In this document: positions 5,710 through 25,347 of the stretch, piece by piece | Layout of the letters: every line of letters starts with the position of its first letter | Numbering within the stretch: position 1 is the first letter of the stretch | IMG/VR virus record: IMGVR_UViG_3300009414_003211 | Location: 1-34,655 of that record | Source: a virus | Direction: 5' to 3' (one strand) | Length of the DNA: 34,655 nucleotides | Position numbers and translations under genes: made by a program | The notes under the pieces: generated by a model | Told to the model about the DNA's origin: nothing | Database searches by the model: none | Seen by the model: the letters and a program-made list of their open reading frames with translations, nothing else

Positions 5710-6063
5710 ATGTCAATTGAACAATACGATCATCAAGAAGTAGTAAGACAGACTGTAGCTAAATTATCTTTGCGCTTAGCGAAGGGCGCTGATAGAGCTG
5801 GTTTGAGTCATCCCTTAGACGAAGCTAGCGCCAAAGGTTTACTAAAAGCTATGGTAGAGCGAGGCGTGATTTATTCAGCTGATGAAGTGTCTTATATTGC
5901 CCAGTATGAATTTCAATGGAATAAGAAACACGCTGATAAACTTGGCAATTTTGCAGAAAAAATTAGCAATGGTGGTAGAGTCCAAGGTGCTGATACTGAG
6001 TTAGGAAAGAGCATGGCAGCTCAAATTTTTCAAAAGCTAGATGATTTATCAGCACCTAAATAG
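5710..6063 (+). CDS. Hypothetical soluble protein, accessory insert gene 1
   Basis: A 120-codon-class gene (117 aa) on the strand opposite to the phage structural genes. I do not recognise the family. The protein is soluble, charged and mostly helical, with no signal peptide or membrane segment. Features include LSLRLAKGADRAGLSHPLDE and a C-terminal FQKLDDLSAPK. A GAGAG ribosome-binding site precedes the ATG. It is followed after eight bases by a membrane protein gene, so the two are probably one transcript. Strand and position between late operons suggest a lysogenic accessory gene (moron), possibly expressed from the prophage. AT-richer than its neighbours, which supports separate acquisition. 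Confidence 0.65.
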   Translation: MSIEQYDHQEVVRQTVAKLSLRLAKGADRAGLSHPLDEASAKGLLKAMVERGVIYSADEVSYIAQYEFQWNKKHADKLGNFAEKISNGGRVQGADTELGKSMAAQIFQKLDDLSAPK

Positions 6064-6071
6064 GATTAAAG

Positions 6072-6677
6072 ATGAACATATATGTACTTTTAGGAATTTG
6101 GTTGGTACTTTGGATCGGTGGATGGTGGATAGCAAAAAATAAAATTAAGGCTAAACAGCCGATAGGTATGGGTTGGTTAATCAGTTTGCCTTTTCTGATA
6201 GTTTGGATGTTAGTTGCAGGATATTTTCAAACAGAACAAACGTTACCAGTAGAGCCAGTTAGCGCAGCAGTCGTAGAGTCTGTGGCGAAAGAACCTGCGC
6301 CCGCTACAATCCCCACCATCCATACAGACCCAAAAATGGCACTCAATTATGCAAATAATCGTTTAGTTAGTTTGAAGAGTGATTACGCCAAAAATGCAGC
6401 GCTTTATCAAGATAAAGACGCTCAAGGCTTACTTAGTATTCGCGGTGAGTTAATAGACGCTATGAATGCCAATGAATATGAATACCCTTCTGAGATGCGC
6501 TATTTTATGGGTTGTGACCAAGCTTACCAGTCTTTAGTTTCTCTAAATCATTACTACCGAGGCGAATCTATACATCAAGACGGTCATAATTTAGAGACGA
6601 TAGCAAACCATGAAAAAGACTATGAATACTGGTTAGGCTTGTGTGAAGATAACATCCAATCCAGCTCAGAGCTTTAA
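6072..6677 (+). CDS. Hypothetical inner-membrane protein, accessory insert gene 2
   Basis: A 201-aa protein with two predicted membrane segments near the N-terminus (about residues 4-21 and 33-52). A Pro/Ala-rich linker follows (EPAPATIPTIHTDP), then a mostly helical domain of about 120 residues, likely periplasmic, with two cysteines (in YFMGCDQAY and WLGLCEDN). The family is not recognised. AGGATTAAAG precedes the start. Its stop codon overlaps the stop of the convergent tape measure gene by three bases. Membrane topology and lysogen-side orientation are compatible with superinfection exclusion or other lysogenic conversion, but that is inference only. Confidence 0.65.
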   Translation: MNIYVLLGIWLVLWIGGWWIAKNKIKAKQPIGMGWLISLPFLIVWMLVAGYFQTEQTLPVEPVSAAVVESVAKEPAPATIPTIHTDPKMALNYANNRLVSLKSDYAKNAALYQDKDAQGLLSIRGELIDAMNANEYEYPSEMRYFMGCDQAYQSLVSLNHYYRGESIHQDGHNLETIANHEKDYEYWLGLCEDNIQSSSEL

Positions 6678-16866: not shown

Positions 16867-17349
16867 CTATCTGAAACTACGACGTAAATGTGCCATCAGC
16901 ACCTGATTGACGCCCGTTTCTGCTTCAGGCTGCAAGTAGCCATTGATATCAATCGGTATGTAAGGACGTGCTGGTATCTTAACTTTGCGGCCACGGCCTG
17001 CCATGCCACCCCATTGCTGTATAGCAGCATACGCGCCTGATTGGTTACCACCGCCCGCACTGATCGTCGCGCTCGTTGCATCGCTAAAAGTCTGTATGCT
17101 GTTGTATAGCGAATCAGAGCGCCTAAGTAGTCCCGCTGTACTAATACCCAAGCGCTCATAGTTTTTAATTGTTACCTGAGATAGGGCAGGCCACTTTGGT
17201 CGCCCTTGCATCCGAAAGTTTTGCTGCGTCTGACTGAGCATTTGCGCGCGTATAGTCCGCATCAGCGGTGCAGTATTGCTGGTTTGCCGAGCTGCTTGGT
17301 TGAGTACCCGTTGTAGCTCATCTGTAATTAATATCGTTGATATTGTCAT
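16867..17349 (-). CDS. G: Virion morphogenesis protein, Mu gpG-like
   Basis: A 160-aa protein of the Mu G (phage virion morphogenesis) family, involved in head-tail joining. The body shows APLMRTIRAQMLSQTQQNF, GRPKWPALSQVTIKNYERLG and the LRRSDSLYNSIQ motif, all typical. The C-terminal IPARPYIPID stretch is also characteristic. I chose the ATG at 17349 (MTISTILITDEL), since the family begins with such a strand. A longer frame from 17415 would run into the tRNA-like element. The ribosome-binding site (AGAG) is weak. It is the last gene of the first late operon. Confidence 0.85.
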   Translation of the reverse strand: MTISTILITDELQRVLNQAARQTSNTAPLMRTIRAQMLSQTQQNFRMQGRPKWPALSQVTIKNYERLGISTAGLLRRSDSLYNSIQTFSDATSATISAGGGNQSGAYAAIQQWGGMAGRGRKVKIPARPYIPIDINGYLQPEAETGVNQVLMAHLRRSFR

Positions 17350-17401
17350 ATATCGCTCTAAGTTGTTGATATTGACAGCGATTGACGTTACGCTAGCAAT
17401 A

Positions 17402-17497
17402 GCATTGGTACTCATAATGGTACGAGGACGGTTGCATTAGTGATTATCAGCATAATCACCAAGCCGTGTGTAGTGGGTTCAATTCCCACCCAATGCC
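17402..17497 (+). tRNA. tRNA-like element with abnormal 30-nt anticodon loop (probable non-canonical or degenerate tRNA)
   Basis: On the plus strand, opposite to F and G, a 96-nt stretch folds like a tRNA. The acceptor GCATTGG (17402-17408) pairs perfectly with CCAATGC (17490-17496). The D arm CTC/GAG encloses a loop with GG. The T stem GTGGG/CCCAC is perfect with T loop TTCAATT (17478-17484), and the variable loop GTGTA is five bases. The anticodon stem ACGGT/GCCGT has one G-T pair, but its loop is 30 nt and contains an 8-bp hairpin GTGATTAT/ATAATCAC (17440-17459). The 3' end reads CCCT rather than NCCA. There is no U33 in normal context, so decoding seems unlikely. It fills the F-G interval almost exactly. 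Confidence 0.55.
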
Positions 17498-17498
17498 C

Positions 17499-18854
17499 CT
17501 AATCATTTAGTACAGTGTCTAATAGCTTTGTATAGTTATTGCCATTATTGAGGTTATTGGCTGTATCTACAGTGATTGTGCGTATGACATTGCCCACAAA
17601 GTTTTGCTTAGCATCAATCACGTCGCGCCCTTTAATGCGCTCATTCAAATGTACAATCAACTTGTACTTGTCCAGCGCGACATCAAAGACCAGTACAGGC
17701 GATTGCTTGTTATTGTCCCAATAGAGGCTATGCGGCGCGTTTAAGTGCTGCACAATATTAGCAACCCAGCTGGGATCATGCCGTTTATGTGCCCGATCCA
17801 AATGCTGCAACGTAATACGATCATGCAGAGTAATAACCGCGTTTTCTAGCGCCAATCCTTTATCAAATGCCAGTTTTTGTACAAACTCAGGACGTACTAC
17901 GCCAACGTGTCGAAACTCACCCTTTGGTCTAGTCGGGTCAACACTATCGACCCATGTTTTTACATCGTCATTAAATCGGCTAAGCACTGACGCGCGTCCA
18001 AGTACAGCTTGCATACTGTTAGCGCCCAGCAAAGCAGGTACTTGACCTGCTTTATCGAGCATTGGCTGCATCGGTAGCGCATCACCTGTATGTACCCAGC
18101 CCGCGTCTGTGCGGTATACAGGCATATTAGGCAAGCGCATGACATTGACAGGGGCAGTGTAAGCCCCATAAGTACCCTGTACGATGACAGATTCAGTGGT
18201 CACATACTGGCTGATATCGTCGTATATCGTATAGCCGTCAAGCGCACCGTACTGCGCGGCTTGCTCAGCAGTCAGTAATATCTCATCACAGCGGCAGCCG
18301 TAAGCACAGCGCGGACGAATAGACTGATAGTAAGGGTCATCGCGGCGAAATATTTGCCCATTGAGTGATTGATGACTTGGACGCACGCGGTTATCGCCAC
18401 GTGATACCCACATCGCATAGGGGTATATATCGTAGTCACCATCGTGGCGGCGTGCTTTGTGATACGCTTGATTGATATTGGTTTCATAAATACGCTTTAG
18501 ACGGTAGTCACTACCCAGCTGTACAGGTTTGACACTACCATCAGGTAGCGTCATATCTTTTTTACCCCACCAGCCTTTTTCCTTAAGCATCGGCTCGATA
18601 GATGCTTGCCATTGCTTAAATGACATATCACCTTCCATGGCTTCGACCAGTGACTGCTGCACTTGCTTTAGCATATCCATGTCAGTCATCTTAGCAACGA
18701 CAAAGGCGTGATCGTGCGCACGCCCCTGTACTTCTAGATAATCAATACTGGCACGAGGCTTTTTGTCTTGTAGATACTGGATAGCATCATCAGGACGGCG
18801 ATTAAACAGGCTTTGCAGATTAATATTATTAGAGGCAGCGTTAGAATCAGGCAT
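17499..18854 (-). CDS. F: MuF-type minor head protein with C-terminal PBECR-like nuclease domain
   Basis: A 451-aa protein. Residues ~1-235 are the MuF/SPP1 gp7 head morphogenesis domain, with RLKRIYETNINQAYHKARR, MWVSRGDNRVRPSHQSLNG and the closing CAYGCRCDEI (C183, C187, C189). Residues ~295-445 are an extra domain. It has HDRITLQHLDRAHKRH (H344, H351, H356, H359), LNAPHSLYWDN, VLVFDVALDKYKLIVHL and IDAKQNF. That layout resembles PBECR-type (Barnase/EndoU/colicin E5-D/RelE-like) nuclease domains fused to MuF proteins. Such fusions are known as MuF polymorphic toxins. The domain call is by pattern only. Its start abuts the portal stop. Confidence 0.82.
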   Translation of the reverse strand: MPDSNAASNNINLQSLFNRRPDDAIQYLQDKKPRASIDYLEVQGRAHDHAFVVAKMTDMDMLKQVQQSLVEAMEGDMSFKQWQASIEPMLKEKGWWGKKDMTLPDGSVKPVQLGSDYRLKRIYETNINQAYHKARRHDGDYDIYPYAMWVSRGDNRVRPSHQSLNGQIFRRDDPYYQSIRPRCAYGCRCDEILLTAEQAAQYGALDGYTIYDDISQYVTTESVIVQGTYGAYTAPVNVMRLPNMPVYRTDAGWVHTGDALPMQPMLDKAGQVPALLGANSMQAVLGRASVLSRFNDDVKTWVDSVDPTRPKGEFRHVGVVRPEFVQKLAFDKGLALENAVITLHDRITLQHLDRAHKRHDPSWVANIVQHLNAPHSLYWDNNKQSPVLVFDVALDKYKLIVHLNERIKGRDVIDAKQNFVGNVIRTITVDTANNLNNGNNYTKLLDTVLND

Positions 18855-24775: not shown

Positions 24776-24936
24776 CTAAGCGTCTCGTGCTCTACTCGGT
24801 CATCTCACGTGATGGAGATCAGCTTGGAAGCTTGTCACGCAACGACTGCCAGTGTTTTTTATATGCAGCGCACCGCTGGTCTGACGCTGTCCGTCTTCTC
24901 TGCATAGCAGCCCTAACGGCAGGGTAGTAACTTATA

Positions 24937-25347
24937 TTAGCAATCAAACAGCTTGTACTGCCTACGGGCATACGCTTCTTTAGCTTGCGCATCATTATGC
25001 TGTTGCACAATCTTACGTACATGACGACTTGTAATAGAATACCTTGCCGCCAACTGATTACTAGTTGCTCCTGCTTTATACTTCTCTACAATGCTTGCAT
25101 TGCGCTGCTTAATTTTTTTCGTTAGCTGCATCGGTAGCGTTAAAGTAGTGTTACCCCAGTAATGGCATAAGCGGCGAGCAACATCATCACCTAGCAGCAG
25201 CACTAACCTATGATTATTTGTTAGTTTTTTTATGGGAGGAATATGCAACTCTTGACCACGGTACGCTGTCACCAGTTGATCAGCAGTCTCTTGGCCGAGC
25301 AGCATTGCTAGTTCCTGATAAGTTTTAGTATGATGACGATCAGGCAT
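24937..25347 (-). CDS. mor: Mor-family transcriptional activator
   Basis: A 136-aa activator of the Mor/C family. Residues ~10-72 are the dimerisation part, with LAMLLGQETADQLVTAYRG, LHIPP and LLGDDVARRLCHYWG, the typical two-fold repeat with beta-strand. Residues ~82-118 are the helix-turn-helix, with RNASIVEKYKAGATSNQLAA and SRHVRKIVQ. In Mu, Mor activates the middle promoter and its relative C activates late promoters. Here only this one member is found, so it probably activates all three late promoters directly. It overlaps the gemA stop by eight bases. Confidence 0.92.
   Translation of the reverse strand: MPDRHHTKTYQELAMLLGQETADQLVTAYRGQELHIPPIKKLTNNHRLVLLLGDDVARRLCHYWGNTTLTLPMQLTKKIKQRNASIVEKYKAGATSNQLAARYSITSRHVRKIVQQHNDAQAKEAYARRQYKLFDC

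Follow-up and report, generated by a model that had tools for sequence, protein, structure and literature searches.

A tRNA-like antisense RNA between genes F and G of Mu-like phages as a candidate antidote to a predicted MuF-linked ribonuclease

Between the late genes F and G of a Mu-like phage, on the opposite strand, lies an element that has most of the parts of a tRNA and a greatly enlarged loop in place of the anticodon loop. What kind of RNA this is, and what it might do at this particular site, are the questions considered here. The window, that is, the whole stretch of 34,655 nucleotides that was analysed, is the record of a Mu-like phage in which transposase, Mor, GemA, MuF, G, protease and major head genes are present. 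Its late genes are on the minus strand, and its closest relatives are Psychrobacter prophages. The features used in the following sections are:

17402-17497, plus strand: tRNA-like RNA with acceptor, D arm, modified anticodon arm, 5-nt variable region and T arm
17428-17467, plus strand: anticodon arm, a 5-bp stem with the loop replaced by a hairpin (17437-17447/17452-17462)
17499-18854, minus strand: gene F, MuF minor head protein (Pfam Phage_Mu_F, 4e-16; PHROG 220) with a predicted BECR-type ribonuclease domain at its C-terminus
17499-18014, minus strand: C-terminal nuclease-like domain of F (aa 281-451), from an AlphaFold2 model and alignment with MuF_C/PBECR proteins
16867-17349, minus strand: gene G, tail completion or virion morphogenesis (Phage_tail_S, 2.6e-19)
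17366-17394, plus strand: candidate weak sigma70 promoter TTGATA-17-TACGCT, found by direct reading

Structure and position of the element

The cloverleaf body of the element is 95 nt long (17402-17496), and 17497 is a discriminator-like base. A preliminary description, made from the sequence without database searches, had recognised most of its parts, and these were found as described. All seven positions of the acceptor stem are paired (17402-17408 with 17490-17496, by direct reading and a script check), as are all five of the T stem (17473-17477 with 17485-17489), whose loop is TTCAATT; the D arm CTC...GAG (17411-17413/17424-17426) has GG in its loop, the variable region consists of the five bases GTGTA, and CCA is not encoded, since CCCT comes next. 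The acceptor, D and T arms of a cloverleaf are all present, and in place of a 7-nt anticodon loop with U33 the anticodon stem ACGGT/GCCGT (17428-17432/17463-17467) closes a loop of 30 nt with an internal hairpin. This hairpin had been given as 8 bp; it exists, but the 8 bp are the inner part of a helix of 11 positions with one A-C mismatch and the loop CAGC.

The element was rightly placed antisense to the late genes, as it is on the plus strand between F and G, both of which are on the minus strand. The statement that it fills the F-G gap almost exactly needs correction, however. Gene G most likely starts at 17349 and not at 17415, because its homologues start there and the HMM-based F-G gap is 149 nt; the gap therefore holds about 50 nt more, upstream of the RNA, in the region where relatives have promoters.

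That such an arrangement is far from chance, as had been argued, agrees with several calculations. When both strands of the window are scanned for a T arm combined with an acceptor stem, the element is the only match; its fold is more stable than those of shuffled sequences (z -2.75); and it obtains the top score with a covariance model of its relatives (see below). The opposite strand folds slightly better than the plus strand (-34.2 vs -30.6 kcal/mol). ARAGORN calls no tRNA, and the Rfam tRNA model gives the element a score of 19.7, below its threshold of 29; therefore, we call the element tRNA-like and not a standard tRNA.

Two other features of the window are recorded here. At 24844-24925 on the minus strand, directly downstream of the Mor gene (24937-25347), there is a match to Rfam RF03044, Proteo-phage-1 RNA (42.6 bits, threshold 42), which is unrelated to the tRNA-like RNA. 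At 5710-6677 two plus-strand ORFs, possibly a moron, stand amid the minus-strand late genes; the first gives a match to DUF1889 (4e-8) and the second gives none.

Relatives of the element and conservation of its fold

A blastn search against phages gives only short chance matches, and the F genes of relatives were taken from IMG/VR, GTDB genomes and GenBank phages. Near copies of the RNA are present in the Psychrobacter-type relatives L003, L009 and L297, and unlike sequences of similar shape occupy the same locus in L002 and L010 (Psychrobacter pygoscelis), L030 (Alishewanella) and L017 (Catenovulum). Elements of the same shape also stand behind F in Acinetobacter prophages, Campylobacter CAM-P21, a Helicobacter prophage and others. 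In every case the tRNA-like element is antisense, and its 3' end is at -8 to +9 nt relative to the stop codon of F. Mu-like prophages of E. coli, including those of O157:H7, carry the element at the corresponding site; many of these copies are labelled 'tRNA-OTHER' by NCBI, and the distal part of their anticodon arm is variable while the core is kept. In total, an antisense structured RNA at the F-G site was found in phages of several phyla, among them Haemophilus SuMu, where the RNA has a T-arm-like end as judged by eye.

Some loci depart from the single-copy arrangement. Three tandem elements stand behind F in L017 (4354-4660) and L157 (3846-4154), which recalls the repeat arrays of type III antitoxins. 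In E. coli JNEC-KY179 (L290, 1996-2195), two tandem copies, annotated as tRNA-Tyr and tRNA-OTHER, adjoin the Mor-family gene of a Mu-like remnant instead of F, and are possibly orphan antidotes.

A covariance model (R1) was built from 13 relatives with the window left out. R1 gives the window element 26.6 bits (E 5.3e-5), the best match in the 34.7 kb; the next best has 12 bits, 14.6 bits lower. Among the same 13 relatives, the acceptor, D and T stems contain 44 cells changed on both sides, compared with 17.6 in shuffles, and shifting the pairing register abolishes this signal. The near copies add a closer comparison: the core RNA of L297 is identical to that of the window at 73 of 74 positions and differs only in the T loop, where A57 has become G, whereas the F and G coding DNA beside it is only 70.6% and 72.6% identical. 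The sequence of the insert hairpin differs in L003, L009 and L297, one of which has an extra base, and the pairing is retained; in the four sequences, four of the seven outer pairs are changed on both sides. A coding role of the insert was rejected because its length differs by one base with the pairing retained. As judged by these sequence comparisons, the fold of the RNA is under selection.

The preliminary description had proposed a search of related prophages for the same element and for compensatory changes in its stems, and had named a lack of stem conservation, or an ordinary tRNA in relatives, as evidence against its view. The search found the element, with its stems kept by compensatory changes, and at the F-G site no relative has an ordinary tRNA, one whose anticodon loop is of the usual 7 nt. 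These observations also bear on the idea that the element is a real tRNA, either decayed or exotic, such as a selfish tRNA gene, a suppressor or an intron-bearing tRNA. The NCBI labels of the E. coli homologues (tRNA-OTHER or tRNA-Tyr) favour this idea, as do a Catenovulum copy that passes the Rfam tRNA model and another copy that is called tRNA-Lys by ARAGORN. However, a normal anticodon loop and CCA are both missing, and the acceptor stem is lengthened in many relatives, often to 8-10 bp; the modified anticodon arm and the often longer acceptor argue against a working tRNA. Decay was rejected because the core is conserved and because relatives have no ordinary tRNA at the site. We regard a real tRNA as the least probable of the explanations weighed in this work.

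The predicted nuclease domain of F and its coupling to the RNA

The neighbouring gene suggests where a function should be sought. F of the window contains both a MuF domain and a C-terminal effector domain. In the AlphaFold2 model of the latter (pLDDT 74.8), a helix with His356 is followed by five strands, with Thr426 after strand 4. His356 (codon 17787-17789), the predicted catalytic residue, lies in the N-terminal helix, and every RNA-positive relative keeps an intact residue in the same alignment column. The window domain aligns with MuF_C/PBECR proteins, and Pfam identifies PBECR2 in the F C-termini of relatives (1e-25 in L074, 1e-16 in L068) and, weakly, MuF_C and PBECR3. For the window protein itself, Pfam does not call the nuclease domain and a fold search against PDB gives no match (E above 0.3), so that its membership in the BECR class rests on the aligned relatives and on the topology of the model, from which we infer a BECR fold.

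Iyer et al. (PMC5512222) place MuF-C in the BECR class and predict it to be an RNase that needs no metal and has a His in its first helix; they regard it as inactive in Mu but likely an RNase in orthologues, and the target is not given there. Colicin D and E5, which are BECR enzymes, have tRNAs as their substrates (PMC3482391), which fits a tRNA-shaped antidote.

The coupling between the RNA and this domain was evaluated on 59 MuF_C-type F proteins that remained after deduplication at 80% identity. The size of the F-G gap, which is bimodal in long F proteins (at most 26 nt or at least 80 nt), was used as a proxy for the presence of the RNA, and the catalytic residue was scored by alignment column; an earlier motif regular expression, which missed subfamilies, had given P 2e-4. 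All 42 proteins with an intact His or Lys in the catalytic helix have an RNA-sized gap, compared with none of the 17 in which the residue is lost (P 3.6e-15, uncorrected). These 17, which lack both the residue and the long gap, include DMS3, PM105, phiSHP3 and a Mu-like homologue; by inspection, Mu itself, which lacks both and whose F and G overlap by 4 nt, and JBD5 also conform to this pattern. On a tree of the MuF N-terminal domain, both traits change 12 times, in step, and there is agreement in all nine independent pairs that are well supported (p 0.004). In addition, an R1 search of the tested relatives without the catalytic residue finds nothing at E 0.1, and 18 of 25 short F proteins without the C-domain have a gap of at most 8 nt.

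A simple physical cause of this association has to be considered, since the C-terminus of F and the gap are neighbours and may be swapped as one cassette, which would itself link them. The nearest RNA-less relative, L004, is informative in this respect. Its F is 66% identical to that of the window overall and 80% over the N-terminal region from which the tree was made; the helix segment bearing the His is lost and the following strands are kept, and therefore a single deletion cannot account for both losses.

About one third of the RNA-positive loci, mainly those with Lys instead of His, have RNAs in which no tRNA shape is obvious (for example, L037, L255 and L257), although the RNA of the Lys-type L301 does have a T arm. 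Decoying of tRNA is therefore not the whole story of the family, and the loci whose RNAs are not tRNA-shaped possibly have other targets. Downstream of F in the Lys-type loci L028, L037, L239, L255 and L257, the antisense RNA is longer, has a motif like ATGAGGG...GCGCCCCTCC and shows no obvious tRNA shape. Behind PBECR3-like F genes (L019, L029, L071, L080, L088 and L096), the antisense RNAs have a GGTGATANTCTC-type motif and represent a different RNA class.

Strict coupling is equally predicted if the F nuclease uses the RNA as its substrate or cofactor, cutting or carrying it as, for example, a processing or assembly signal or an RNA packed in the head. However, phages without both partners (Mu and DMS3) are viable, and the antisense promoters described below suggest expression independent of the late operon; we know of no precedent. 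We consider this explanation unlikely.

Transcription signals were compared between the strands of 40 RNA-positive loci. A sigma70-like promoter with at least 9 of 12 matches is present on the antisense strand of 27 loci and on the sense strand of 5; the motif TATA[AC]T is seen in 22 loci antisense and 2 sense, where 4.1 are expected, and the T-arm consensus in 9 antisense and none sense, where 0.17 are expected. With other C-domain types of F and a gap of 60-260 nt, antisense promoters are found in 13 of 32 cases, compared with none on the sense strand. In the window, the predicted +1 of the candidate promoter falls at 17401-17402, the latter being the first base of the acceptor stem. A generic promoter scan does not call this TTGATA-17-TACGCT; L009 keeps its hexamers (TTGATA/TAAGCT) although the spacer differs.

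These counts help to decide whether the functional product could be the reverse complement within the late mRNA, for example, a processing site. In favour of this, the minus strand folds better, and the mismatches of the insert, A-C on the plus strand, are G-U on the minus strand, so that covariation by itself does not settle the strand. But the T-arm consensus and TATA[AC]T are both strongly biased to the antisense strand, and one pair of L009 is a wobble on the plus strand only; a structure of the late mRNA therefore appears highly improbable to us. An antisense RNA could also regulate F-G transcription or translation in cis, with a fold that merely provides stability, given that the RNA gene and F converge, that the RNA is antisense to the mRNA of F and G and that its promoters face the late genes. 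However, it covers neither the F start nor the G start; the T loop, the GG of the D loop and the acceptor helix are conserved across unrelated sequences, and regulation would not track a nuclease residue. We consider regulation of this kind very unlikely.

A proposed decoy-tRNA antidote and its relation to known systems

An RNA that is present if and only if the nuclease is catalytically intact, that has the shape of the substrate on which the best-known enzymes of the class act and that has its own promoter is most simply explained as an antidote occupying the substrate site. On comparative grounds we hold it fairly probable that the RNA is a decoy-tRNA antidote to a virion-borne MuF/PBECR ribonuclease, providing a type III-like immunity. 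The preliminary description had offered a tRNA mimic or decoy among its readings, and this one gains support, since belonging with the nuclease-bearing C-terminus of F gives the decoy a target; the other, a tRNA with an insertion in the anticodon loop, is a description only.

In the proposed model, a small RNA gene would be transcribed from its own sigma70-type promoter against the late operon. The RNA, an uncleavable decoy in the shape of a tRNA, would bind the C-terminal ribonuclease domain of the adjacent F and silence it; that it inhibits the RNase directly is suggested by the joint loss of the two. The acceptor, D and T arms would serve recognition, and the rebuilt anticodon arm would be either the part that the enzyme cannot cut or a determinant of specificity. 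The F head protein would be packed in the virion and ejected along with the DNA. As its place on a MuF protein suggests an enzyme that is carried inside the virion (PMC5512222 and PMC5576092), the RNA would shield the producing cell and the lysogen, whereas infected cells that lack the RNA would have no shield against an enzyme that is presumably toxic and whose target would be a tRNA. In E. coli (L291-L294), the distal anticodon arm differs between prophages and other parts of the RNA are nearly fixed; the last residues of F are also variable, and a specificity pairing is possible. As to which tRNA is imitated, the top genuine tRNA of R1 is tRNA-His in 6 of 8 typed genomes, but tRNA-His was rejected as the target; this preference probably arises because the 8-bp acceptor is common to tRNA-His, while the acceptor of the window has 7 bp.

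One close parallel is type III toxin-antitoxin systems (ToxIN, CptIN and TenpIN), in which a structured RNA neutralises an endoribonuclease; this is proven there and proposed here. The layout is different, as type III RNA repeats lie upstream on the same strand, whereas the phage RNA is antisense and downstream, and, apart from the triplets in L017 and L157, mostly single-copy and tRNA-shaped, unlike type III antitoxins. The enzymes also differ: the F nuclease is part of a virion protein and is predicted to fold differently, and Pfam gives no match of the ToxN, CptN or TenpN type for F but MuF and MuF_C/PBECR instead. A second parallel is provided by the tRNases colicin D and E5, which share the BECR fold as far as the predicted fold of F allows the comparison. 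Both cut tRNA anticodon loops, colicin D by a His-based mechanism, and the immunity partner occupies the tRNA site. That partner is a protein, whereas in the proposed phage immunity its role would fall to an RNA that mimics the substrate. Viral tRNA-like structures such as the tymovirus TLS (Rfam RF00233) are likewise tRNA-shaped RNAs that are not tRNAs; they form the 3' ends of plant RNA virus genomes, however, whereas the window element is a separate gene of a DNA phage, and its Rfam score is far below threshold.

The window F itself belongs with the MuF polymorphic toxins (PMC5576092) and MuF-C/PBECR proteins (PMC5512222), which have the same combination of an N-terminal MuF carrier and a C-terminal effector. 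The accessible text of these two papers discusses protein immunity or none and describes no RNA partner, and in the open-access literature we found no description of an RNA partner for MuF/PBECR or of a tRNA-mimic antisense RNA in Mu-like prophages. The element may be the first case in which a polymorphic toxin system has an RNA as its immunity factor.

For the biology of these phages, an RNA that is tRNA-shaped and strictly coupled to the nuclease points to tRNA as the target of MuF-C, which is also relevant to the model phage Mu. The coupling explains why Mu and DMS3, which have lost the catalytic residue, have no such RNA, and the model offers a reason for the odd 'tRNA-OTHER' annotations in Mu-like prophages. 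More tentatively, and with somewhat less than even confidence, we suggest that immunity by RNA to virion-delivered toxins forms a general class, in which MuF-linked RNases are accompanied by co-evolving antisense RNA antidotes shaped like their RNA targets. If this is true, tRNA would be mimicked in many lineages and other RNAs elsewhere, and the shape of the antidote would reveal the target of the toxin.
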